64,000 bases of DNA from Siphonodentalium dalli (lineage: Eukaryota > Mollusca > Scaphopoda > Gadilida > Siphonodentaliidae): the NCBI GenBank assembly GCA_032622095.1, contig CP136066.1, positions 207,474,978-207,538,977 of the forward strand, in the 5' to 3' direction. Below are positions 1 to 46,490 of the stretch, one piece after another. The notes beneath the pieces were generated by a model. The model did not search any database, was not told where the DNA came from, and saw only the letters and a program-made list of their open reading frames with translations. The translations under genes and the position numbers were made by a program. Each line of letters begins with the position of its first letter. Within the stretch, counting starts at the first letter, position 1.

Positions 1-3000
1 GTACTGACATGGCCCATGGGCCCTTTAATGCTGCACCAGCGCAGCTCCCGTCATGTTATTAAAGACAGTAACTAAATCAATACAGAGATCATCTAACCCT
101 CATAATACTGACCAAGAACTATTTACTCCACATTATATTACACAGATATCGGTGGATGTACTGACATGGGACCTTTAATGCTGCACCAGCGCAGCTCCCG
201 TCATGTTATTAAAGTCAGTAACTAAATCAATACAGAGATCATCTAACCTTCATAATACTGACCAAGAGCTATTTACTCCACATTATATTACACAGATATC
301 GGTGGATGTACTGACATGGGACCTTTAATGCTGCACCAGCGCAGCTCCTCCCGTCATGTTATTAAAGACAGTAACTAAATCAATATGGAGATCATCTAAT
401 CCTCAGAATACTGACTAAGAACTATTTACTCCACATTATATTACACAGATATCGGTGGATGTACTGACATGGGACCTTTAATGCTGCACCAGCGCAGCTC
501 CCGTCATGTTATTAAAGTCAGTAACTAAATCAATACAGTGATCATCTAACCCTCAGAATACTGACCAAGAACTATTTACTCCACATTATATTACACAGAT
601 ATCGGTGGATGTACTGACATGGGACCTTTAATGCTGCACCAGCGCAGCTCCCGTCATGTTATTAAAGTCAGTAACTAAATCAATACAGTGATCATCTAAC
701 CCTCAGAATACTGACCAAGAACTATTTACTCCACATTATATTACACAGATATCAATGGATGTACTGACATGGGACCTTTAATGCTGCACCAGCGCAGCTC
801 CCGTCATGTTATTAAAGTCAGTAACTAAATCAATACAGAGATCATCTAACCTTCATAATACTGACCATGAACTATTTACTCCACATTATATTACACAGAT
901 ATCGGTGGATGTACTGACATGGGACCTTTAATGCTGCACCAGCGCAGCTCCTCCCGTCATGTTATTAAAGTCAGTAACTAAATCAATACAGAGATCATCT
1001 AACCCTCAGAATACTGACCAAGAACTATTTACTCCACATTATATTACACAGACATCGGTGGATGTAATGACATGGGACCTTTAATGCTGCACCAGCGCAG
1101 CTCCCGTCATGTTATTAAAGTCAGTAACTAAATCAATACAGAGATCATCTAACCATCAGAATACTGACCAAGAACTATTTACTCCACATTATATTACACA
1201 GACATCGGTGGATGTACTGACATGGGACCTTTAATGCTGCACCAGCGCAGCTCCCGTCATGTTATTAAAGTCAGTAACTAAATCAATACAGAGATCATCT
1301 AACCCTCAGAATACTGACCAAGAACTATTTACTCCACATTATATTACACAGACATCGGTGGATGTACTGACATGGGACCTTTAATGCTGCACCAGCGCAG
1401 CTCCCGTCATGTTATTAAAGTCAGTAACTAAATCAATACAGAGATCATCTAACCATCAGAATACTGACCAAGAACTATTTACTCCACATTATATTACACA
1501 GATATCGGTGGATGTACTGACATGAGACCTTTAATGCTGCACCAGCGCAGCTCCCGTCATGTTATTAAAGTCAGTAACTAAATCAATACAGAGATCATCT
1601 AACCCTCAGAATACTGACCAAGAACTATTTACTCCACATTATATTACACAGATATCGGTGGATGTACTGACATGGGACCTTTAATGCTGCACCAGCGCAT
1701 CTCCTCCCGTCATGTTATTAAAGTCAGTAACTAAATCAATACAGAGATCATCTAACCATCAGAATACTGACCAAGAACTATTTACTCCACATTATATTAC
1801 ACAGATATCGGTGGATGTACTGACATGGGACCTTTAATGCTGCACCAGCGCAGCTCCCGTCATGTTATTAAAGTCAGTAACTAAATCAATACAGAGATCA
1901 TCTAACCATCAGAATACTGACCAAGAACTATTTACTCCACATTATATTGCACAGATATTGGTGGATGTACTGACATGGGACCTTTAATGCTGCACCAGCG
2001 CAGCTCCCGTCATGTTATTAAAGTCAGTAACTAAATCAATACAGAGATCATCTAACCTTCATAATACTGACTAAGAACTATTTACTCCACATTATATTAC
2101 ACAGATATCGGTGGATGTACTGACATGGGACCTTTAATGCTGCACCAGCGCAGCTCCCGTCATGTTATTAAAGTCAGTAACTAAATCAATACAGAGATCA
2201 TCTAACCCTCGTAATACTGACCAAGAACTATTTACTCCACATTATATTACACAGATATCGGTGGATGTACTGACATGGGACCTTTAATGCTGCACCAGCG
2301 CAGCTCCTCCCGTCATGTTATTAAAGTCAGTAACTAAATCAATACCGAGATCATCTAACCATCAGAATACTGACTAAGAACTATTTACTCCACATTATAT
2401 TACACAGATATCGGTGGATGTACTGACATGGGACCTTTAATGCTGCACCAGCGCAGCTCCTCCCGTCATGTTATTAAAGTCAGTAACTAAATCAATACCG
2501 AGATCATCTAACCATCAGAATACTGACTAAGAGCTATTTACTCCACATTATATTACACAGATATCGGTGGATGTACTGACATGAGACCTTTAATGCTGCA
2601 CCAGCGCAGCTCCTCCCGTCATGTTATTAAAGTCAGTAACTAAATCAATACCGAGATCATCTAACCATCAGAATACTGACTAAGAACTATTTACTCCACA
2701 TTATATTACACAGATATCGGTGGATGTACTGACATGGGACCTTTAATGCTGCACCAGCGCAGCTCCTCCCGTAATGTTATTAAAGTCAGTAACTAAATCA
2801 ATACAGAGATCATCTAACCCTCAGAATACTGACCAAGAACTATTTACTCCACATTATATTACACAGATATTGGTGGATGTACTGACATGGGACCTTTAAT
2901 GCTGCACCAGCGCAGCTCCCGTCATGTTATTAAAGACAGTAACTAAATCAATATGGAGATCATCTAATCCTCAGAATACTGACCAAGAGCTATTTACTCC

Positions 3001-5112
3001 ACATTATATTACACAGATATCGGTGGATGTACTGACATGGGACCTTTAATGCTGCACCAGCGCAGCTCCTCCCGTCATGTTATGTCAGTAACTAAATCAA
3101 TACAGAGATCATCTAACCCTCAGAATACTGACCAAGAACTATTTACTCCACATTATATTACACAGATATTGGTGGATGTACTGACATGGGACCTTTAATG
3201 CTGCACCAGCGCAGCTCCCGTCATGTTATTAAAGTCAGTAACTAAATCAATACAGAGATCATCTAACCCTCATAATACTGACCAAGAACTATTTACTCCA
3301 CATTATATTACACAGATATCGGTGGATGTACTGACATGGGACCTTTAATGCTGCACCAGCGCAGCTCCTCCCGTCATGTTATTAAAGTCAGTAACTAAAT
3401 CAATACAGAGATCATCTAACCTTCATAATACTGACTAAGAACTATTTACTCCACATTATATTACACAGATATCGGTGGATGTACTGACATGGGACCTTTA
3501 ATGCTGCACCAGCGCAGCTCCTCCCGTCATGTTATTAAAGTCAGTAACTAAATCAATACAGAGATCATCTAACCTTCATAATACTGACTAAGAACTATTT
3601 ACTCCACATTATATTACACAGATATCGGTGGATGTACTGACATGGGACCTTTAATGCTGCACCAGCGCAGCTCCTCCCGTCATGTTATTAAAGTCAGTAA
3701 CTAAATCAATACAGAGATCATCTAACCTTCATAATACTGACTAAGAACTATTTACTCCACATTATATTACACAGATATCGGTGGATGTACTGACATGGGA
3801 CCTTTAATGCTGCACCAGCGCAGCTCCTCCCGTCATGTTATTAAAGTCAGTAACTAAATCAATACAGAGATCATCTAACCTTCATAATACTGACTAAGAA
3901 CTATTTACTCCACATTATATTACACAGATATCGGTGGATGTACTGACATGGGACCTTTAATGCTGCACCAGCGCAGCTCCTCCCGTCATGTTATTAAAGT
4001 CAGTAACTAAATCAATACAGAGATCATCTAACCTTCATAATACTGACTAAGAACTATTTACTCCACATTATATTACACAGATATCGGTGGATGTACTGAC
4101 ATGGGACCTTTAATGCTGCACCAGCGCAGCTCCTCCCGTCATGTTATTAAAGTCAGTAACTAAATCAATACAGAGATCATCTAACCCTCAGAATACTGAC
4201 CAAGAGCTATTTACTCACATTATATTACACAGATATCGGTGGATGTACTGACATGGGACCTTTAATGCTGCACCAGCGCAGCTCCTCCCGTCATGTTATG
4301 TCAGTAACTAAATCAATACAGAGATCATCTAACCCTCATAATACTGACCAAGAGCTATTTACTCCACATTATATTACACAGATATCGGTGGATGTACTGA
4401 CATGGGACCTTTAATGCTGCACCAGCGCAGCTCCCGTCATGTTATTAAAGTCAGTAACTAAATCAATACGGAGATCATCTAACCCTCAGAATACTGACCA
4501 AGAACTATTTACTCCACATTATATTACACAGATATCGGTGGATGTACTGACATGGAACCTTTAATGCTGCACCAGCGCAGCTCCCGTCATGTTATTAAAG
4601 TCAGTAACTAAATAAATACAGAGATCATCTAACCCTCATAATACTGACCAAGAACTATTTACTCCACATTATATTACACAGATATCGGTGGATGTACTGA
4701 CATGGGACCTTTAATGCTGCACCAGCGCAGCTCCTCCCGTCATGTTATTAAAGTCAGTAACTAAATCAATACAGAGATCATCTAACCCTCAGAATACTGA
4801 CCAAGAACTATTTACTCCACATTATATTACACAGATATCGGTGGATATACTGACATGGGACCTTTAATGCTGCACCAGCGCAGCTCCTCCCGTCATGTTA
4901 TTAAAGTCAGTAACTAAATCAATACAGAGATCATCTAACCATCAGAATACTGACCAAGAACTATTTACTCCACATTATATTACACAGATATCGGTGGATG
5001 TACTGACATGGGACCTTTAATGCTGCACCAGCGCAGCTCCCGTCATGTTATTAAAGTCAGTAACTAAATCAATATGGAGATCAAGAACTATTTACACTTT
5101 TATATTACACAG
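1..5112. repeat. Satellite array, 150/153-bp monomer, about 33.7 copies
   Basis: Monomers begin with GTACTGACATGGGACC at 1, 158, 308, 461, 611, 761, 911, 1064 and so on to 5000, which gives 33 full copies and one partial. The period is 150 bp, or 153 bp where CTCC is expanded to CTCCTCC; one copy near 3029 and one near 4245 lack a few bases. Copies differ by a few substitutions only. The array starts at the window edge, so its true length is unknown. The last copy (5000-5112) has an internal deletion and is cut by a hAT-type MITE. No coding frame runs through it. It lies downstream of the last CEP78 exon found here, so it is probably intronic or 3' to that gene (inference). Confidence 0.97.
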
Positions 5113-26545: not shown

Positions 26546-26815
26546 CTAGCAGGTTAACTATAGCCCGCCACTGGCGTGGTTCGTCTCATGGCTTTGTTCG
26601 AAAAAGCAATTGCAACAGCTTCCGAGACACGTATGCTGCACCTAGGTGTAAACTTTCGTCGAAATCCGCCCGATTTGACCTTGAATTTATCATTTTCAAG
26701 GTCAGGTCGGGGTCACAATTTAACGCGTCCATGACACTTCCCGCACAAAAGTACGCATAGGTAGCAAGTTTGAGCTCAATCGGTTCGAGTCTATAAAGGA
26801 CACACACATATATAT
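26546..26815 (-). mobile_element. Helitron-like non-autonomous element, fragment
   Basis: Read on the minus strand, it ends in a GC hairpin (CCACGCCAGTGGCGGGC) followed by a short spacer and CTAG (26546-26549), the pattern of a Helitron 3' end. The interior has AAGGTCA-type sequence and the 5' side fades near 26815. It belongs with the copies at 28307 onward. Confidence 0.55.
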
Positions 26816-28079: not shown

Positions 28080-28306
28080 AACTATCAACGCGATTAACCC
28101 CACAGTGCCAAGGACGTAATTTTTGTGACTGGGTGTGGAGAACGGGTGCTCGGAGCTTCTCTGAAATGCCGCGATCGCACTGTTCGTGGGGTTTTACCGT
28201 TAGATGGGAAGTTTGGTCTCGATCGGTCCAGCCGTTTTCGATTCTATAAAGTATATATATATACACACACATATATATATACGGAGTTCTCAAAATATAT
28301 AGTAGA
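28080..28306 (-). mobile_element. Helitron-like element, 5' portion
   Basis: Minus strand: the 5' end TCTACTATATATTTTGAGAA at 28306 abuts the CTAG of the next element with no gap. The interior has GATCGGTCCAGCCGTTTTCG. Its own 3' end is not identifiable. Confidence 0.5.
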
Positions 28307-29146
28307 CTAGCAGGTTAGCCCGCCACCGGCGGCTTGTCCGAAACATGACATTTTTATATATATTTTTAATTTTTAGCTCCACGCGTTTCAATAAGAAAAA
28401 TTTGTACCCGGTAGCTCCACCAGTTTCCGAGATCTGGTCTGCGCATGAAAATTTGTACCCGGCGCAAGATACATTCACATGCCAAATTTCAAGTCGATAG
28501 CTCCACCCGTTTCCGAGATCTCGTCTGCGCATGCGCTGCACGGGCGTCGCACGGGCTCGGCGACCCGATAAAATTTGTACCCGGCGCAAGATACATTCAC
28601 ATAGCAAATTTCAAGTCGATAGCTCCACCCGTTTCCGAGATCTCGTCTGCGCATGCGCTGCACGGGCTCGGCGAAATTTCAAGTCGATAGCTCCACCCGT
28701 TTCCGAGATCTCGTCTGCGCATGCGCTGCACGGGCGTCGCACGGGCTCGGCGACCCGATAAAATTTGTACCCGGCGCAAGATACATTCACATAGCAAATT
28801 TCAAGTCGATAGCTCCACCCGTTTCCGAGATCTCGTCTGCGCATGCGCTGCACGGGCTCGGCGACCCGATACAATTTGTACCCGGCGCAAGATACATTCA
28901 CATAGCAAATTTCAAGTCGATAGCTCCACCCGTTTCCAAGATCTCGTCTGCGCATGCGCTGCACGGGCGTCGCACGGGCTCGCCAATACGACAACGACCA
29001 CCGCCTGGTCAAACTACACACACGTACCAAGTTTCGTCCCGATCGGTCGAGAATCGTAGATTTGTATGAAGTACAACACACACACAAACATAAATATATA
29101 AGAGAGATATGTAAATTAGATAGATTGTATCAAAATATATAGGAGA
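28307..29146 (-). mobile_element. Helitron-like element with tandem core (type C)
   Basis: Minus strand: the 5' end is near 29146 (TCTCCTATATATTTTGATAC). A CGATTCTCGACCGATCGG block and a core of about five 121-122-bp repeats follow, each with TGCGCATGCGC and GAGATCTCGGAAACGGGTG. The 3' hairpin GCCGCCGGTGGCGGGC and CTAG are at 28307-28310. One core unit is shortened near 28650-28680. Long frames across the core on both strands are by-products of the repeats. Confidence 0.75.
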
Positions 29147-29295
29147 GATATGTAAATGATCTACACACCATTACTGGTGTTTGTCAAAGTTTAGTGGGGT
29201 ATATCAATACTCATTCACGATCATATCATTGAGGTCCGAAGGGTGTGGGCTATCTCTCGAATACAAGGAGTTCTCAAAATATATAGAAGAGAAGA

Positions 29296-29919
29296 CTAGC
29301 CGATGAGCCCGACGTTGTCCGGGCTATTCAAAAACCAAATTTCAAGTCGATAGCTCCACCCGTTTCCGAGATCTCGTCTGCGCATGCGCGAAGCTGACGT
29401 CGCCCGGGCTCGGCGACCCGATAAAATTCGTATCCGGGGCAAGATACATTCACATACCAAATTTCAAGTCGATATCTCCACCCGTTTCCGATATCTCGTC
29501 TGCGCATGCGCGAAGCTGGCGTCGCACGGGCTCGGCGACCCGATAAAATTCGTATCCGGGGCAAGATACATTCACATAGCAAATTTCAAGTCGATAGCTC
29601 CACCCGTTTCCGAGATCTCGTCTGCGCATGCACGAAGCTGGTGTCGCACGGGCTCGGCGACCCGATAAAATTCGTAATCGGGGCAAGATACATTCACATA
29701 CCAAATTTCAAGTCGATAGCTCCACCCGTTTCCGAGATCTCGTCTGCGCATGCGCTGCACGGGCGCCGCACGGGCTCGCCAATACGACAACGTCCACCGC
29801 CTGGTCAAACTACACAAACGTACCAAGTTTCGTCCCGATCTGTCGAGAATCGTAGATTTGTATAAATGACAAACATACAAACATACAAACAGACAGAGGT
29901 CTTCAAAATATATATGAGA
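29296..29919 (-). mobile_element. Helitron-like element, type B
   Basis: Minus strand: the 5' end TCTCATATATATTTTGAAGA at 29919 abuts the CTAG of the neighbouring element. The core has four repeats of about 122 bp with TGCGCATGCGC. The 3' end has the hairpin GCCCGGACAACGTCGGGC, then CTCATCGG and CTAG at 29296-29299. Same type as 37759-38374 and 39102-40039. Confidence 0.8.
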
Positions 29920-30356
29920 CTAGCTGATGTGCCCGACTTCCTCCGGACGGGCTATTTAGGGATTTCTTTGTGATCGCCTCCGTCTGCGGAGAAAGAATCC
30001 AGAATCATGCCTATATGAGCGTATATGAGCAAGGTCAAGGTTAAGGTCAAGGACACGGTCACATTTAAAATTGGACCCACCCATGTGTTTCCTGTGATCA
30101 AAGTAGCCCTACATACCAAATTATAGGTGGATCGGTGGAGTTCCAGAAACATCACTATATGAGCGCATATGAGCGAGGTCAAGGTGAAGGTTAAGGACAC
30201 GACCACACGTGAAATTGGATCCGCCCATGCATATTGATCCCAGGATCAAAGTAGGCCTAGGCTACATACCAAATTTGAGTCAGATTGGTCAAGCAGTTTT
30301 TGAGTCTATAACAAACGTACATACAGACAGACAAACATAAGTTCAAAAATTTATAG
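29920..30356 (-). mobile_element. Helitron-like element, type D
   Basis: Minus strand: CTAG at 29920-29923 is preceded by the hairpin-forming GCCCGTCCGGAGGAAGTCGG region. The interior has two related halves with CTTGACCTTAACCTTGACC-type sequence. The 5' end is near 30356 (TATAAATTTTTGAACTTATG). It is head-to-tail with the type B copy. Confidence 0.6.
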
Positions 30357-30365
30357 GAAATTTGT

Positions 30366-35043: not shown

Positions 35044-35510
35044 CTAGAGGTTACCCTGAAGATGCATAAACAGTTTGGGATTAAAAGGAAGAAAAACTTT
35101 GGCTGCAGGGAGTGCCAAAGGATTCAGTAATACTAATAGAAAGAGTAAAATATGAGATGGCTCCCATCTGCAGGTCATCCCAAAGATCCATATGAAGTTT
35201 GGTGATGATCGGATGAGGGAGTTGGCCTCTTGGGTGCGCAGAATGATGTAGTCAAAAGAGTAAAATCCCAGATGGCACTTGACAGCCATGTTTTTCAGTG
35301 AAATAAGGAAATTTGATGGCTCCAATCTGGTGTTCACCCAAAAGATCCATATAAAGTTTAGTTATGAAAGAGTAAAATCCAAGATGGCTGCCAGCAGCCA
35401 TGTTTTTCATCCAAAAATTTTAAAATTCGAGAGCTCTTATCTAGAGGTGATCCTGAATATGCCAGTAAATTTTCAAAACAATTCTCCAACGAGAGGCCAA
35501 TCACGATCGG
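35044..35510. repeat. Dispersed repeat with AAGATGGC units
   Basis: Repeated blocks AGAGTAAAATCCAAGATGGC, CCATGTTTTTCA and GATCCATATGAAGTTTGGTG match the longer tract at 41040-42850. The frames across it look protein-like only because the units are alike. Confidence 0.7.
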
Positions 35511-36302
35511 CAGATGTTTAACCCAACTTGACGATACCGATTAGCTATTTTAATAAACCCTTACACCAACCTTTTCATGAGTGCAAAAGTTTCAACAAGT
35601 CACACCTTACTATTAAGGTCACAAGTGGAATGAGACTTATTGGGCACCTTGCTCACATAAACACAATAGCAACACGGATGTGGCATTCAATTTCAACCTA
35701 TTAGGTCACTCCAACACAGATATGTCTTATACAGTGATAAAGCTAATTAAGCTCAATCCATAGTCAGAGAGAAGCACCATAGCAGTTAAAGACAAAATAG
35801 TTAAGACATTAAGTAGATAAACATCATAGCAACTCCATTTATTTGCTTATTACATTGGAATGTGAGACAAAACATATTTATATGTTTGTTTTTATTATTG
35901 TTATTTTTTGTGTTAGCTGCATATTAAAAATTCATGGGATCATTTAGATGGTAGAAAAGGGTTAATATTTCCAATTCAAAAACCAATCAATACCTGAACA
36001 ACTATATAATTGAGGGATGTATAGACCTGGATATAAAATGATTGGATATAAAATGTTTTAATGCAGAATTTTCAGATAGCTAGAGGTAGGATATGAGATT
36101 GGTCAGATTGAAAATATTAGATTCATTACATTGGATAGCATACTGTATGACTATGTAATGGGGTGGGTTAATTTTCTTCTAAGCTGATCATTGGAAAGAT
36201 ATAATGTATGTAAACAGCGGAAATATAATTAAAGTTATGGTTAATATTATCAAAACAATTCAATCGATACCAAAATCTATACAGGTGAAGAATGTGTCAT
36301 CA

Positions 36303-36790
36303 TTAAAGGTACTCAACCCGTAAAGAGGGTCCCCATCTCAACAGATTCCAACAACAACAATCCGATCAGAGGGTCCTATATTACTATTTCTTTGGCTTTG
36401 GGGGTAAAAAATATTTGATTCGAGTCGAGGAACCCATCAAACAAAGCTCAGAGTCATTAGATATTGATTTTTGAAAATTCTTATGTTCTCGAGATGAGTA
36501 CTTATAACTGCCGTCAATTTGGTAACATGCTCGAGATTTTACGCCAAAATTCTATTCAAACAGACAAGGATGGATAACTCTATAATCAAGTGGGTAATAA
36601 TAACGAATTTTTTACTATCTTCTGGGCCAGAAAGAATTCCCGATAATGAAAAATAATAGATTTCTAAAATCGATATCTAACAAATCTGAGCTTTGATGGG
36701 TGACTTCCTCGACTCGAATCAAATATTTTTGACCCCCGAAGCCATTGAAATAGTAATTGAGAGGAGTTTTATCGGGTTGAGTACCTTTAA
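36303..36790. mobile_element. TTAA-flanked MITE, AGGTACTCAACCCG family
   Basis: TTAA on both sides; ends AGGTACTCAACCCG and CGGGTTGAGTACCT. Subterminal inverted blocks include AAATATTTGATTCGAGTCGA. It is about 480 bp. A degraded relative is at about 47785-48175. The flanking sequence (TACAGGTGAAGAATGTGTCA) matches 40853, so it inserted in an older dispersed repeat. Confidence 0.8.
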
Positions 36791-37134: not shown

Positions 37135-37758
37135 TGCACGCCGAGCCGATTTCGATGAAACTTGGTATGTGGGGGTACTTTCAGCCGGGGAGTGGCATGG
37201 GCCTGTTAATTTGCCTGTGCGACGTGACCTTGACCTTGAAATTGGGTCATTTCAATGTCAAACGCCCGAGTATCACGGGATTTCGATGAAAATTAGTGTC
37301 TGGGGATACTTTCGTATGGGGAGTGTCGTAAGCCTATCCGTTTGCCCGTGCGACGTGACATTGACCTTGAAATCGGGTCAATTCAAGGTCAAATCGCGAA
37401 TTTTGATGGGATTTCGACGAAATTTGATACGTGGGGTTACTTTTGTCCACTGAGTGTTTTGGACGGGTCGAGTCGTGACCCCGACCTGACCTTGACCTTC
37501 AAAATGATCAAATCGGGTAAAACCGGATGGATTTCGATGGGTACTTCTGTCGGGTACTTTTGTCCGGGCAGTGTTTTGGACGATTCAAATCGTGACCCCA
37601 CCTCACCTTGACCTTCAAAATGGACATTTCAAGGTCAAATCACGCAATTCGCCGAAAAGCAGAGGGGAAACAGCCCGGACGAAGACCTGACAATTCAAGG
37701 TCAATTCGCCGAAAAACAGAGGGGAAACAGCCCGGACGAAGTCGGGTCCACCTGCTAG
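37135..37758 (+). mobile_element. Helitron-like element A1 (5'-truncated)
   Basis: Plus strand, type A: an interior of inverted pairs built from TGACCTTGAAAT and ATTTCAAGGTCA, then the 3' hairpin CCCGGACGAAGTCGGG, spacer TCCACCTG and CTAG at 37755-37758. The 5' end is missing; the sequence begins near GCCGATTTCGATGAAACTTG. Confidence 0.8.
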
Positions 37759-38374
37759 TGTCATATATATTTTGAAGACCTCTGTCTGTCTGTCTGTATG
37801 TCTGTATGTATGTCATTTATCCAAATCTACGATTCTCGACCGATCGGGACGAAACTTGGTACGTGTGTGTAGTTTGACCAGGCGGTCGTCAACGTCGTAT
37901 TGGCGAGACCGTGCGGCGCCCGCTTCGCGCATGCGCAGACGAGATCTCGGAAACGGGTGGAGCTATCGACTTGAAACTTGCTATGTGAATGTATCTTGCC
38001 CCGGATACGAATTTTTATCGGGTCGCCGAGCCCGTGCGACGCCAGCTTCGCGCATGCGCAGACCAGATCTCGGAAACAGGTGGAGCTATCGACTTGAAAT
38101 TTGGTATGTGAATGTATCTTGCCCCGGATACGAATTTTATCGGGTCGCCGAGCCCGTGTGACGCCAGCTTCGCGCAGACCAGATCTCGGAAACGGGTGGA
38201 GGTATCGACTTGAAATTTGGTATGTGAATGTATCTTGCCCCGATACGAATTTTATCGGGTCGCCGAGCCCGTGCGACGCCAGCTTCGCGCAGACCAGATC
38301 TCGGAAACGGGTAGAGTTATCGACTTGAAATTTGGTTTTTGAATAGCCCAGACAACGTCGGGCTCATCGGCTAG
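37759..38374 (+). mobile_element. Helitron-like element B1
   Basis: Plus strand, type B: the 5' end TGTCATATATATTTTGAAGA directly follows the CTAG of A1. A CTGTCTGTCTGTATG run and CGATTCTCGACCGATCGG follow, then about three and a half core repeats of 122 bp (period measured from 38019 to 38141). The 3' hairpin, CTCATCGG and CTAG are at 38371-38374. Two core units lack part of the GCGCATGCGC block. Confidence 0.85.
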
Positions 38375-39101
38375 TCTATTATATATTTTGGAAGATCTGT
38401 GTGTGTGTGTGTTCGCAATGAACTTGAAAACGGCCGACCCGATTTCGACGAAACTTGGTATGTGGGGGTACTTTCAGCCGGGGAGTGACATAGGCATATT
38501 AATTTGCTCGTGCGATGTGACCTTGAAATCGGGTTATTTCAAGGTCAAACGCCCGAATATCACGGGATTTCAATGAAACTTGGCATGTGGGGTTACTTTT
38601 GGCCGGGGAGTTGCATATGCCTATTAATTTGCCAGTGCGATGTGACCTTGAAAGCGGGTCATTTCAAGGTCATCGCCCGAGTATCACGGGATTTCAATGA
38701 AAATTAGTGTCTAGGGATACTTTCGTATGGGGAGTCTCATAAGCCTATTCATTTGCCCGTGCGACGTGACATTGACCTTGAAATCCGGTCAATTCAAGGT
38801 CAAGTCGCGAATGTTTATGGGATTTCGACGAAAATGATACTTAGGGTTACTTTCGTCCACTGAGTGTTTTGGACGGGTCAAATCATGACCCCGACCTGAC
38901 CTTGACCTTAAAAATGATCAATTCAAGGTCAAATCGGGTAAAACCGGATGGATTTCCACGGGTACTTTTGTCCGGGCAGTGTTTTGGACGGGTCAAATCG
39001 TGACCCCCACCTGACCTTGGCCTTCAAAATGGACAATTCAAGGTCAAATCGCCGAAAAGCAGAGAGGAAACAGCCCGGACGAAGTCGGGTCCACCTGCTA
39101 G
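38375..39101 (+). mobile_element. Helitron-like element A2, full length
   Basis: Plus strand, type A, 727 bp: the 5' end TCTATTATATATTTTGGAAG abuts the CTAG of B1. The interior has repeated GATTTCGACGAAA and TTTCAAGGTCA blocks. The 3' end has CCCGGACGAAGTCGGG, TCCACCTG and CTAG at 39098-39101. The TC start, hairpin and CTAG end fit a non-autonomous Helitron. Confidence 0.88.
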
Positions 39102-40039
39102 TCTCATATATATTTTGAAGACCTCTGTTTGTCTGTCTGTCTGTATGTCTGTCATTGATACAAATCTACGATTCTCGACCGATCGGGACGAAACTTGATA
39201 CGTGTGTGTAGTTTAACCAGGCGGTCAACGTTGTCGTATTGGCGAGCCCGTTCGGCGCCCGCTTCGCGCATGCGCAGACGAGATCTCGGAAACGGGTGGA
39301 GCTATCGACTTGAAATTTGGTATGTGAATGTATCTTTCCCCGGATACGAAGTTTATCGGGTCGCCGAACCCGTGCGACGCCAGCTTCGCGCATGCGCAGA
39401 CGAGATCTCGGAAACGGGTGGAGCTATCGACTTGAAATTTGGTATGTGAATTTATTATATACTTGCCCATGAATTATAAGGTTTTAGCAGTGAGATATAA
39501 ATGATATCCCACTAGTGAGATATAAGTGATATCCCACTGGTGAAATTTCTGATGTATTGACATTCATTGGGGGCCATAGGCAAGTAATTAAAGTATATAA
39601 TAAACAGAATATCCACACTTTTTCAGTAGATATGGGTTAAATCTCATTCGTGATGACAAAACATTTGAATTTCCACTCGTGGCTAAAGCCACTCGTGGAA
39701 ATTCAATGTGTTGTCATCACTCATGAGATATAACCCATATCCACTGAAAAAGTGTGGATATCCTCTATGTATCTTGCCCCGCATACAAATTTTATCGGGT
39801 CGCCTAGCCCATGCGACGCCAGCTTCGCGCATGCGCAGACCAGATCTCGGAAACGGGTGGAACAATCGACTTGAAATTTGCTATGTGAATGTATCTTGCC
39901 CCGGATACGAATTTTATCGGGTAGCCGATCCCGTGCGACGCCAGCTTCGCGCATGCGCAGACCAGATCTCGGAAACGGGTGGAGCTATCGACTTGAAATT
40001 TGGTTTTTGAATAGCCCGGACGTCGGGCTCATCGGCTAA
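39102..40039 (+). mobile_element. Helitron-like element B2, split by a foldback element
   Basis: Plus strand, type B: the 5' end TCTCATATATATTTTGAAGA abuts A2. The core is interrupted at about 39451-39765 by an unrelated insertion and resumes with ATGTATCTTGCCCCG. It ends with the hairpin and CTAA at 40036-40039, an accepted CTRR variant. Confidence 0.85.
39607..39763. repeat. 157-bp foldback palindrome inserted in B2
   Basis: Arms GAATATCCACACTTTTTCAG and CTGAAAAAGTGTGGATATCC pair almost completely around a centre GTGGCTAAAGCCAC. The preceding segment (39452-39606) carries tandem GATATCCCACTAGTGAGATA-type repeats and probably belongs to the same insertion. Confidence 0.8.
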
Positions 40040-40813
40040 TCTATTATATATTTTGGAAGATCTGTGTGTGTGTGATCGCGATGAACTCGAAAACGGCCAA
40101 GCCGATTTCGATGAAACTTGGTATGTGGGGGTGTTTTCGGCCGGGAAGTGGCATAGGCATATTAATTTGTTCGTGCGATGTGACCTTGAAATCGGGTTAT
40201 TTCAAGGTCAAACGCCCGAATATCACGGGATTTCGATGAAACTTGGTATGTGGGGTTACTTTCGGACGGGGAGTGGCATAGGCCTATTAATTTGCCTGTG
40301 CGACATGACCTTGACATAGGGTCATTTCAAGGTCAAACGCCCGAATATCACAGGAATTTTGATGAAAAAATTAGTGTCTAGGGATACTTTCGTATGGAGA
40401 GTCTCATCTCATAAGCCTATTCATTTGCCGTGCGACGTGACCTTGAAATCGGGTAAATTCAAGGTCAAATCGCGAATTTTGATGGAATTTCCACGAAATT
40501 TGATACATAGGGTTACTTTTGTCCACTAAGTGTTTTGGACTGGTCAAATCGTGACCCCGACCTTCAAAATGATCAATTTAAGGTCAAATCGGGTAAAACC
40601 GGATGGATTTCGACGGGTACTTTTGTCCGGGCAGTGTTTTGTCCGGGTCAAATCGTGACCCCACCTTACCTTGACCTTCAAAATGGACAATTCAAGGTCA
40701 AATCGCGCAATTCGCAGAAAAGCAGAGGGGAATGGACAATTCAAGGTCAAATCGCGCAATTCGCCGAAAAGCAGAGGGGAAACAGCCCGGACGAAGTCGG
40801 GTCCACCTTCTAG
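40040..40813 (+). mobile_element. Helitron-like element A3, full length
   Basis: Plus strand, type A, 774 bp: the 5' end TCTATTATATATTTTGGAAG directly follows the CTAA of B2. It has the same internal order as A2, with a duplicated AATTCAAGGTCAAATCGCGC block near 40690 and 40738. The 3' end is the hairpin, then TCCACCTT and CTAG at 40810-40813. This closes the A-B-A-B-A array. Confidence 0.87.
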
Positions 40814-42850
40814 TAATTTATAAACCGATCAACCGATCGATATCAAAAACTATACAGGTGAGGAGTGTGTCATCATAAACATGCACATAAAATTTGAACA
40901 CGATCCGATAAAATATATTCGAGTAATCGAATTAGATAGCAAGTGTCTACGGACAGACAGACGGACGACGGATGGTTGATCCGGACATCGGCATTATGTG
41001 TACCATACATGGTATGGGTACACATAATAAATACGGACTGCAGGGTTTGCCAATAGATTCAAATTTGAAATCCAAGATGGCTGCTGGCGGCCATGATTTT
41101 TAACGGATTTTGGAACAAACCTGATGACTCCCATCTAGAGGTCACCCCGAAGATCAATATGATGTTTAGAGATGATCGGATGAGGGAGGTGCCCTGTGCC
41201 AAAGGCTATAGTCATACAAAGAGTAAAATCCAAGATGGCCACTGGCGGCCATGTTTTTCAATGAAATTCAGAAAAATGTTATGGTTCCCATCTAGAAGTC
41301 ACCTCGAAGATCCATATGAAGTTTGGTGATTATCGGATAAGGCCTGTGTGCCAAAGGATTTAGTCATGCAAAGAGTAAAATCCAAGATGGCTGCTGGCGG
41401 ACATGTTTTTCATAGAAAACTATTCAAGTTTGATAGCTCACGTTTAGAGGTGATCATAAACAAGCCTGTAAATTTTCAAAACAATTCTCCAATAAATGCG
41501 GGCTGCATGGTGATGGTGGCCAATGGATTCAAATTGAAATCCAAGATGGCTGCACATGGCATGTGTTTTAAACGAATTTCGGAAAAATAATGATGGCTCC
41601 CATCTGGAGGTCACCCGGAAGATCCATATGAATTTTGGTGATGAGAGATGTGACCTGTAGGGTGAGCTAATGGAAATTGTTGAAGGATCACGGACACACA
41701 CATGGACAACGGACACCAACCCATGGAAATAGCTCAAACTTCAAGTTGAGCTAAAAATAGGCAGTGGAGCTATAGACAGTGGTACATTGAGCTTCCCATT
41801 CCAGACAGACGACGATACGTTGGTATTTAATTATTCTTACAATAAATATTCTATTGATTTGACTCCTATTGTCATGTATTTAGTTACTAGAGACTGAAGT
41901 TAACACAGAATGCACTAAATATATTCAGTAGGGTTTATTTATACGGAAACAAAATTAGGTTGAGTCCCAAAATGAAAGTGTCAATGACACTGTAGCTCAA
42001 CTTGGAGAGGAGAATATCATACCTGTACCTAACAGTCAATAGAGATAACTATGTGGAAAGTTCAAATGTTTAAGTCAAACCAGAGGTCAACCCAAAGAGC
42101 CATATGAAGTTTGGGATCAACCGCATGGATGAAAAATGTTGGCTTTAGGGCATGCCTAAGACATGCAACTTTAGACTAAAATATAATGTTTTTAACGGAA
42201 AATCATTCAAATTCGATAGCTCCCATCTGGAGATGTTCAAAAACATGCCTGGAAATTTCTCTGACAAATGCGCACTGCAGAGTTTGCTGATGTCTCCCAT
42301 CTGGAGGTCACAACATTGATCTATATGAAGTTTTGTGACAGCTGATGAGGGATGGTTCTGCAGGGTATGCCAAAGGAATCAGTCACACAAAGAGTAAAAT
42401 AAAATGACTGTCGGCAGCCACATTTAAAAACAAATTCAGAAAAAATTTGACAGCTCTCATCGAGAGTTCACCCTAAAGATTCATAAGAAGTTTGACGGTG
42501 ATCGGATGAGGGATGTGGTTTGTAGGGTGTTCCAAAAGATTAGTTAGTCTGACTCTGACATGAAAAGAATAAAATCCAAGATGGCTGCCGACGGCCACAT
42601 TTTTCATCGAAAATCATTCAAATTCGTAGTTCCCATTTAGAGGTGATCCCAAACATGCCTGTAAAGTTTCAAAACATTTCAAAAATATATATGGGCTCCA
42701 TGGAATTCAAATGTCAAATCCAAGATGGCCACTGGCAGCCGTGTTTTTTTAACAGAATTCGGAAAATATGGTAGACTCCCATCTAGAGGTCACTCTGAGG
42801 ATCCATAGAAAGCTTGGTGAAGATCTGATGAGGGATGTGGCCTTACTGTA
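40814..42850. repeat. Tract of divergent AAGATGGC dispersed repeats
   Basis: At least six degenerate units share ATCCAAGATGGC, GGCCATGTTTTT, TCCCATCTAGAGGTCA, GATCCATATGAAGTTTGGTG and CGGATGAGGGATGTGGCC in this order, each unit about 200-300 bp. The start (40820-41035) is another dispersed repeat ending in ACGGACAGACAGACGG and an ACCATACATGGTATGGGTAC hairpin. No host exon is seen in this tract, which borders the KIFBP 3' side. Confidence 0.75.
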
Positions 42851-43074: not shown

Positions 43075-44829
43075 CTAACCATCTAACTGTATTCTTAACC
43101 TCTCCATCTTCATTGGTAATAACATTACCATTTCTTTACATATACTCAATTCACTACTTACAACATCACAAGCACTATGGTTTTTTTCACAGTAATCTGT
43201 AATGTACTTATAACATTCAACACTTTTTCCAGTATAAGATATTCTTTGTGACACATCTGCAGTTAGAAATTTTCCATACAGTCTGCCCATGCAAAACATA
43301 GCAACAAGAGCAGGTCGCAGGACATCATCACAAAACTGTTCCGGTAAGTCAGGTTTACCACCTTTCAATGAAATCAAAAAAGCATTGTACTGTTCTATAC
43401 TCTGCTTTGCTAACTGGTTAACTTTGTTAGCTGCGTGTGGTGAAGGTGTAACTCCTGCTTGCTCTATTATTGAAATCTTTATATCTAGCATTGCACTGTA
43501 AGTCTCTGCAATTTCAAACATTAACTGACGACACAGCAACAAGTAATGTTGTGAGTTCAGGCCTTTAAGTAGATCCTGCAGCATATCTATGCGCCTTTTT
43601 TGCATTTTGCATTGACGCTCTAGTTCAGGCTCAAAGAATGAAAGAAATTTGTAAGCCTTGCTAACATCCTGGGTTATATTTATATAATCAGAACAGTATC
43701 CATCCAATACATAAAACGACTTTGCCGCCTTCGCCCAGTCTAGGATATTGAGGAAAGTACTTCTTGCTTCTTCATAATCTCTTGTAAATTTCCATCTGAT
43801 TCTATCTTCTTTTGAGGTTACTTCCAAATTGAAAAAAACAGAAGGTTTTGACTCTTCATTTCCACTGCATTTTTTATCAGCGTTATGATCAGGTTCATCC
43901 AGGTGTTCAACTTCTTGCAGCAGATAATCGCGTGAGCATTCCAAAAGAGCTAAACCATATTTGATCCAACAACGACAAAAATCAGCTTTCCTTGTACCTA
44001 GCGTCTCCCTCATGTTATCGTCAATTATTACCATTTTATCTTCTGCTTCCTGAAGCATAAAATCTGCACATGCTAAACAATGCCTTGCTTCTGAAAATTT
44101 ACTAGATGAAACATAATATTGTGAAAGTGTAGCGCAGTTTGTTGCCCAATCCAAGCGATCAAATTCCTCCAAATTGAGTTGTCGTTGAAGAGTTGTTTGA
44201 CAATAGGCCGCAGATTTCTCAGTCATCTCTAATCGCGCATAAACTTGGGCCAAATAATACAAAGTATGTGTATACGACTCCTCAAACTTCCTTTCCCTTG
44301 ATCGCACAAGAAAGTTTCCATCATTATTATCATTATCAAATTCATGTGGTTTTATGTATTCGTCAAAAGAGATTGGCGCTCCACCATACTTTTCTTTGTA
44401 TTCGGTGTACAGCTTTTCTGATTCTTCCAGAAACGTCATGGCCTTGTGGTGTCCATCATCACCACGATTTGTCCATAACAACCCCAGCTGATTCAATATG
44501 TTAATATATGTGTCTGTACCTTCGGTACTGAGCTTGAATTTTTCTAAACTATCAAGACATCTGTTGAGTAACTCTTCACTGGAATGTAATTCTTCCGTTT
44601 CAGAGTAATTGATTGCAATTTTCAAATCGACCGCAACAGAAATCAGTAAGCTGTCACATTCAGATTCGTATTGCTTCAAAGAATCTTTAACTTTTTGCAA
44701 TAGCTCCCTTGCTTTATATCTAGATTTATATGGTTCATCTTCTGGGTCGTTTTTAGTTTCCACTTCATCCAAATTTATAGCCTTTTGCAAGGTTTCTTTT
44801 ACATCAGTCGTGAGATATTTGCTCGCCAT
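43075..44829 (-). CDS. KIFBP: KIF-binding protein (KBP), single-exon reading frame
   Basis: KBP binds the motor domains of several kinesins and blocks their attachment to microtubules, so it tunes axonal and mitochondrial transport (known for the family). The uninterrupted minus-strand frame gives 584 residues; the human protein is about 620. The start is the ATG at 44829, giving MASKYLTTDV with a strong context (GAAATGG); an upstream in-frame extension begins with TTG and is not a start. Landmarks are EPYKSRYKAR at about residues 32-41, TPR-like helices with YYLAQVYARLEMTEKSA, WATNCATLSQYYVSSSKF, and the conserved C-terminus ending PMKMERLRIQLDG. There are no frameshifts or internal stops. 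Downstream there is a variant ATTAAA poly(A) signal near 42995 but no genomic poly(A) run or flanking duplication. The vertebrate gene has several introns, so this copy is intronless by intron loss or old retroposition. It is very likely functional. Confidence 0.97.
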   Translation of the reverse strand: MASKYLTTDVKETLQKAINLDEVETKNDPEDEPYKSRYKARELLQKVKDSLKQYESECDSLLISVAVDLKIAINYSETEELHSSEELLNRCLDSLEKFKLSTEGTDTYINILNQLGLLWTNRGDDGHHKAMTFLEESEKLYTEYKEKYGGAPISFDEYIKPHEFDNDNNDGNFLVRSRERKFEESYTHTLYYLAQVYARLEMTEKSAAYCQTTLQRQLNLEEFDRLDWATNCATLSQYYVSSSKFSEARHCLACADFMLQEAEDKMVIIDDNMRETLGTRKADFCRCWIKYGLALLECSRDYLLQEVEHLDEPDHNADKKCSGNEESKPSVFFNLEVTSKEDRIRWKFTRDYEEARSTFLNILDWAKAAKSFYVLDGYCSDYINITQDVSKAYKFLSFFEPELERQCKMQKRRIDMLQDLLKGLNSQHYLLLCRQLMFEIAETYSAMLDIKISIIEQAGVTPSPHAANKVNQLAKQSIEQYNAFLISLKGGKPDLPEQFCDDVLRPALVAMFCMGRLYGKFLTADVSQRISYTGKSVECYKYITDYCEKNHSACDVVSSELSICKEMVMLLPMKMERLRIQLDG

Positions 44830-46490
44830 TTCAGTTCCAGCAAAAATCGACAAAAATATGTCAATATTTATGCAAATAAATTTCAGTCAAGCAAAATTCA
44901 TCCTTTCATCCAAATACCCTTATTTTGAAACAATGTATTGAAAATATTTATGACCGGTCAATTTGATAGTATTACCGATTATTTTAATGAACCTTCTTTG
45001 AAAATTAACCAAGCCGCAGGCCTGCCAAGATTTACTGCGGCGTTACAAATATTTATCTGAATTATTTTTTCGCTGAGAACTTATCTCAAATTTTCGTAGT
45101 GAATGTAAATTAAAGTAAAAGAGAAGAATGCCTAAGAAGTAAAATAATCACGCTATATTTCTTGGTGTATAATACTTGACAAAGAACTAATTAATAGGAT
45201 GGTATCTAAGGACGCGATGTTAATAATTTGCATATATTCGATGTAAACAAAGACGTTAAATTTAACTTCTTAAGTCTTAAGTTAAATAGCGTCGCCCGGT
45301 TTAACTTTCAGTTTCACTAGGACTGGGCGAGCTGCGTTGGCCGAGTTGTTAGTATTTTCGAATACTGTCCTGAGATTTTGCTGATGATGACCCAGATCTA
45401 TTCACCTCGATCCTCAACAAAAACAAAAGTCAGGAGTTCCGAGCGTGCCTATACTATTACTAAATTACTATAGACTAGTAATAATTAGTATAGTATATAT
45501 TAAAATACTTCGTAATCGTATGCCTCGCTGAGGTGTCGTTAAGGGGTAATCCTCTCCCACCCGGGCCAGTGTCATGTACAGGGATGACAATGGTTTGATC
45601 ACATCGCCGCATCGGGAGGGGGCAATCTCTCACGACTTCCCCGTCGAGGAAATTTTGTGCTGAAGTTTGTTAGAATGCATCGCCATCCTCCCACTAGCCC
45701 ACCCACCCCGTGAGGCGTGACCCGGCCAAGTTTTTTCTTATAGTGTTCTTGAAATGTGTCTCTCTTTGGTGTGATTCTTTTGGTGTGCTCGTTTATATTT
45801 AATAAAGGTGACTTTTTACTAAATAACGGGAATACTATATTACTAGAATTATATTTCTTTGAAAAACTCAAAACATTGGGCGATGACGGCGAAGTCGTAT
45901 GATATTGCTGGGTGAGGGTGTAAAATATGTGTCACATGTACAACCATGTGTGCACAATAAAGAACACTACTGTGGGCAACGATCCACAGGTTAATGGCTA
46001 CATTTCCTGTCAAAATTCCTCCCTTCGGGGCGTAAGTTGATAGACATTTCAGGTGATGCTGTAATAGAGTTATCTCTCATCAGTGACCATGGTGGTGGAA
46101 TACACAAAGCTGTGGTATGTATATAGCGTGTGGTGGTGGTGTTGAATTCTCAAAGTACATTTCAGATACAGATGTGGAGATGGTGAACTTACTCGCAAGA
46201 AGTTGGGTGGCCAATGTGGCCAGATAGATTATCATAGATACATAAGATACTAGTTCCAGATTTTGATTTGATTTGATTTGTAATCTGCAGTCTTGAAACT
46301 TGAACGAATGACCAAAACCCAACATGTGATTTGGATCAATCGAAATCGGAGAACACTATACTATACAAACTATACACTATACAAACTGGTACCACTACAA
46401 CATCATAGTCATTTCACTGAATTCCCCATGTTGAGGTTGATTCCAAGTCCGAATGAGTTCACTTGATGATTTGTCATGATGATTTATTTA
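44830..46490. other. KIFBP upstream region, no further gene recognised
   Basis: This should hold the KIFBP promoter and 5' UTR and perhaps the unseen first exon of DYNC2LI1, which runs the other way. I could not identify a start exon. No repeat family of the window is evident. Confidence 0.35.

Follow-up and report, generated by a model that had tools for sequence, protein, structure and literature searches.

How do five short Helitron-like elements of two types come to stand head to tail, in strict alternation and without a single base between them? In the 64-kb stretch of Siphonodentalium dalli DNA analysed here (the window), direct reading of positions 37135–40813 gives five units in the order A-B-A-B-A, joined by four zero-gap junctions: A1/B1 at 37758/37759 (CTAG/TG), B1/A2 at 38374/38375 (CTAG/TC), A2/B2 at 39101/39102 (CTAG/TC), and B2/A3 at 40039/40040 (CTAA/TC), the array terminating after A3 as CTAG/TAATTT. 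A preliminary description had proposed this order and these four junctions, and all four are present; the start that it gave, 37135, is no element end, although the array itself is real, A1 being recognisable from about 37140. The copies of each type share their 5′ and 3′ ends, except A1, which has no 5′ end.

All five members lie on the plus strand. A1 (37140–37758) is a 5′-truncated nonautonomous Helitron of type A that lacks the first 58 bp of A2, has one fewer of the ~125-bp units, and ends in CTAG. A2 (38375–39101) is a full-length type A element running from TCTATTATATATTTTG to CTAG, and A3 (40040–40813), also full-length, carries a 49-bp tandem duplication (40682–40781) and ends in CTAG followed by T; the 5′ end common to A2 and A3 is TCTATTATATATTTTGGAAGATC. 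Of type B, B1 (37759–38374) has a tandem core with units of about 115–122 bp, the hairpin GCCCAGACAACGTCGGGC, and a CTAG end, while B2 (39102–40039) ends in CTAA and is broken by an insert of about 315 bp, partly palindromic, at 39452–39766. B1 and B2 share the 5′ end T(G/C)TCATATATATTTTGAAGACCTC, the second base being G in B1 and C in both B2 and B3, a copy described below. The internal tandem units measure 115–122 bp in B and 124–131 bp in A, so that both types have the arrangement of central tandem repeats between two end modules that is a trait of HINE/Helentron elements. The insert in B2 looks like two adjoining inverted-repeat parts, of which BLAST confirms the second only (39606–39764, an 87.5% match to its own complement).

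The label “Helitron-like” given to these elements earlier is borne out. The canonical 5′ TC occurs at seven of nine ends (A2, A3, B2, B3, B4, D, and E′), B1 having TG and C having TT, and CTRR closes all nine 3′ ends, although this motif also served to recognise the 3′ ends. DNA folding predicts a stem close to each of the nine 3′ ends, but the z-scores are weak (−0.2 to −2.5). The end hairpin quoted for A in the preliminary description is as quoted; that quoted for B is exact for B3 only, B1 differing by one change (GCCCAGAC…) and B2 lacking three loop bases. At the two unchained 3′ ends the next base is T, and B4 and C have A before their 5′ ends; with A as the 5′ flank (at the two unchained 5′ ends), T as the 3′ flank, and CTAG ends, the elements do not show the TT or oligo-T insertion site of HINE/Helentron elements. 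A Pfam scan of 16 of the 30 window open reading frames of at least 110 aa found no Helitron domain, and among seven reading frames in the B elements three gave weak matches below the curated cut-offs and four gave none. Neither an empty site nor an autonomous partner was seen in the 64-kb window.

Judging by their sequences, A, B, and the third type C probably belong to a single group as its subfamilies. Local alignments of the element bodies scored above all 200 first-order Markov randomised sequences generated per comparison in four of four comparisons: A2-B1 (49, against a randomised maximum of 39), A2-C (70 against 46), B3-C (39 against 34), and A2-B3 (50 against 39). The likeness of A to B and of A to C in the body, together with the similar termini, makes shared mobilisation plausible.

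The preliminary description held that random insertion would not give strict alternation without spacers. If five elements are picked independently from two types of equal frequency, the probability of strict alternation is by simple arithmetic 2/32, so that alternation by itself is weak evidence and requires no special mechanism. The absence of spacers is another matter. With in-orientation landing at random among the 6651 AT sites of the window, and eight 5′ ends assumed, 0.005 zero-gap junctions would be expected among nine 3′ ends; seven were observed, or six without the B3-D junction. An independent insertion at the A/T of a resident's own 5′ boundary need not leave a spacer.

The array does not stand alone. 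Two more chains lie on the minus strand at a distance of about 7 kb, one consisting of C, B3, and a fragment D, the other of a B-like element and a fragment E′. C (29920–30360) has its 5′ end at about 30360, with TT in place of TC and an A before it, and its CTAG abuts B3 at zero gap. B3 (29296–29919) is a full-length type B element that ends in CTAG and is followed by D (29256–29295), a short 5′-terminal fragment. At this junction TC comes right after CTAG, yet the match between D and E′ begins 5 bases later and TCTTC is doubled, so either the two elements abut and a short stretch is duplicated, or 5 bases separate them. In the second chain, B4/E (28307–29107) resembles B in its 5′ part and core but carries another 3′ end (GGCGGGCTAACCTGCTAG), has A as its 5′ flank (TACATA/TC), and is followed immediately by E′ (28209–28306), again a 5′-terminal fragment. 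The 5′ end of B4 is also found doubled (29148–29107, minus strand), the copies lying 41 bp apart with ATTTACATA before each. Further along the same strand, a relative of A with an E-type 3′ end (26546–26790), its 5′ end undefined, ends in CTAG followed by T, with no element behind it.

Counted over the 64-kb window, seven of the nine recognised CTAG or CTAA 3′ ends run into a 5′ end of the same orientation, six of them at exactly zero gap and B3-D possibly 5 bases off; because similarity of sequence and the CTAR motif served to pick out the 3′ ends, this fraction is descriptive and no unbiased sample, and elements decayed past recognition fall outside it. Nine 5′ and nine 3′ ends of the window were examined for abutment in inverted orientation, and none showed it. 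The joined partners are of five kinds, A-B, B-A, C-B, B-D, and E-E′, and A-B is therefore no special unit: junctions of the same kind also join the C-B, B-D, and E-E′ pairs nearby. The presence of several chained subfamilies is useful here for telling rolling-circle multimers from consecutive insertion beside a resident, because simple multimerisation of one element cannot make mixed chains.

A composite of at least two linked elements could nevertheless move as a unit, replication starting from one 5′ end, passing an internal CTAG, and stopping at a later one; AB pairs inserted before an A would then give [AB][AB]A. This would account for the alternation directly, and each B copy that keeps the 3′ end of its own type (B1, B2, and B3) has a partner on either side, while the chimeric B4/E, with its B-like 5′ part and different 3′ end, resembles a read-through product. 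Against it, the 64-kb window showed no A-B or B-A junction beyond those of the array, B3 having C before it and D after it, and the distances given below show no sister relation of the two AB pairs. We regard such a composite as unlikely.

The divergence among copies bears most directly on whether an A-B unit was amplified. Over 610 ungapped columns, with the insert in B2 left out of the alignment, B1 and B2 differ at 37 sites, B1 and B3 at 36, and B2 and B3 at 41; the mean distance of the two array copies to B3 exceeds that between them by 0.0025 (bootstrap 95% interval −0.0139 to 0.0189). In the comparison with random copies that had been suggested for this locus, then, the two array copies are as far apart as each is from an outside copy, B3 being the only such copy, with no full-length A to set beside it. 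The A copies form a star: over 519 columns A1-A2 differ at 46 sites, A1-A3 at 43, and A2-A3 at 45, private sites number 20 (A1), 22 (A2), and 19 (A3), and each pair is separated by 9–12 gaps. A single amplified unit predicts equal divergence of its parts; A-A divergence tends to lie above that of B1-B2 (mean difference 0.0255, 95% interval −0.0015 to 0.0524), but the difference is not clear. A recent local duplication of A-B finds no support in these distances and was rejected, B1-B2 being no smaller than B-B3.

With B4 as the outgroup, over 329 columns, six of nine informative sites join B1 with B2, two join B2 with B3, and one joins B1 with B3, and on account of the first six B1 and B2 may descend from an old common source; by eye, however, four of these six sites fall together in a single uninterrupted block of the alignment. 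The same six sites would suit a model in which an A-B circle was co-amplified by rolling-circle replication, either before or upon insertion, for which there is also the precedent of precise end-to-end circle junctions in Helraiser (PMC5876387, in the portion available), a finding that keeps multimer models in play. The lack of a significant difference between A-A and B1-B2 divergence agrees with it as well. Such a circle is harder to reconcile with a B1-B2 distance no smaller than B-B3, with the same kind of junction in other partner pairs, and with A copies that carry 9–12 gaps per pair and tend to diverge more than B1 and B2 do, and we consider it improbable. Rolling-circle replication of an A-B unit, which the preliminary description had put forward, is thus unsupported, B1-B2 being as divergent as B-B3 and the junction kind being shared by other pairs. 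Unequal crossing-over between A copies, by which A-B-A would have grown to A-B-A-B-A, is simple, yields strict alternation, and fits the four junctions, but if recent it should have left B1 and B2 closer to each other than to B3, and one A pair closer than the rest, neither of which is seen (the pairs differ at 46, 43, and 45 of 519 sites); it could only be old, and we give it the least credence of all.

The better reading, ranking above amplification of an A-B unit, is successive insertion: we think it slightly more probable than all else that the array built up step by step, each newcomer among these related nonautonomous Helitrons inserting at the 5′ A/T of a resident. Repeated insertion had been named earlier as the alternative to replication, and it is this alternative that the five kinds of partner pair and the B1-B2 distance, no closer than B-B3, uphold. 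The ends of short non-coding Helitrons of related subfamilies (A, B, C, and E) would be recognisable by the Rep/helicase of one autonomous Helitron. A Helitron that lands between a host A and T would again have an A/T at its 5′ boundary, because its first base is T, and the transposase could target this resident A/T, made up of the host A and the first T of the element. The CTAG of the newcomer would then directly abut the TC of the resident, giving a zero gap and a G/T junction with no need for a non-canonical target. The uniform orientation suggests that the nick would be placed on the resident's own transfer strand, and under insertion at the 5′ boundary the rightmost element would be the oldest. 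D and E′ are bare 5′ fragments, which would fit a landing site that needs nothing more than a 5′ end. That the junctions keep one orientation, and that such fragments serve as downstream partners, both speak for the resident 5′ end as the target; insertion at the 3′ side (CTAG/T) is also possible and gives the same product, and nothing firmly separates the two. The host 5′ junction of the array is missing, A1 being truncated.

Stacked head-to-tail Helitrons are already known, and what deserves notice here is how densely the chains lie and that they mix several types. For tandem Helitrons both rolling-circle multimers and consecutive insertion beside a resident have been proposed (in the available text of PMC2267711 and PMC5148889). 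The closest likeness is a pair of different adjacent maize Helitrons, of the same orientation and with the same G/T junction (CTAG/TC, G/T standing for A/T), explained by consecutive insertion, with a resident 5′ end proposed as the target for one of two insertion orders (Du et al. 2008, PMC2267711, as far as the available sections go); the maize case has two elements, whereas S. dalli has a five-member alternating chain and other chained elements within 13 kb. Perfect head-to-tail junctions are also reported for tandem Helitrons of bats and plants (as cited in the accessible parts of PMC5876387 and PMC2267711), the bat cases being read there as tandem repeats of Helitrons, whereas the S. dalli chains mix several types. 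For three tandem Helitrons of Metarhizium acridum the same two alternatives were offered, a rolling circle or the landing of one copy at another's 5′ end, although the fungal Helitron termini are non-canonical; the excerpts of that paper cite tandem insertions in bat, Drosophila, rice, and maize (PMC5148889). The oyster element Cg_HINE, in the available text of PMC7492417, is likewise nonautonomous, with central satellite-like tandem repeats and modules shared between elements, but it is of Helentron type with a TT insertion preference, while S. dalli has CTAR ends and T after unchained 3′ ends. The available portions of wheat and rice papers (PMC13286980, PMC4683698) held nothing further on chains, and no paper was found with the words “inserted into other Helitrons”.

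We put forward more tentatively that a resident 5′ end, even a mere fragment, is a preferred strand-specific landing site for related Helitrons in the S. dalli genome. If true, mixed chains would grow polarly in the 5′ direction and serve as assembly sites for new composite elements, to which chains of similar-ended members are a possible route.

Searches of genome_contigs and viral_contigs gave no exact match to a 28-base core of B. Two matches to the junction pattern in viral contigs (L001 and L002) were taken as chance, the 301 and 451 bases around them having no likeness by eye.

Type A elements may also carry regulatory motifs. Of 26 copies of TCAAGGTCA in the window, on either strand, 24 fall within A1–A3; this is presumably the half-site of the ERR and FTZ-F1/SF-1 nuclear receptors, and such candidate half-sites could be spread by type A elements. 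One inverted TCAAGGTCA pair is predicted by folding to form a 12-bp stem (38518–38547, z −4.65).

The surroundings are themselves repetitive. A tandem array at 15–5083 consists of 33.5 copies of a 150-bp unit (a period of 303 bp, two units long, was called as well), and a degenerate tandem family with a unit of about 152 bp containing AAATCCAAGATGGC flanks the Helitron array at 35103–35489 and 41068–42843. The 44-bp stretch directly behind A3 (40836–40879) recurs upstream of the array at 36263–36306, in the same orientation and with 88.6% identity. Beyond these repeats, on the minus strand at 43075–44886, lies a KIF-binding protein gene, a 603-codon stop-to-stop frame apparently in one exon, called from Pfam KBP_C (E 9.3e-123) and PDB 6zpg.
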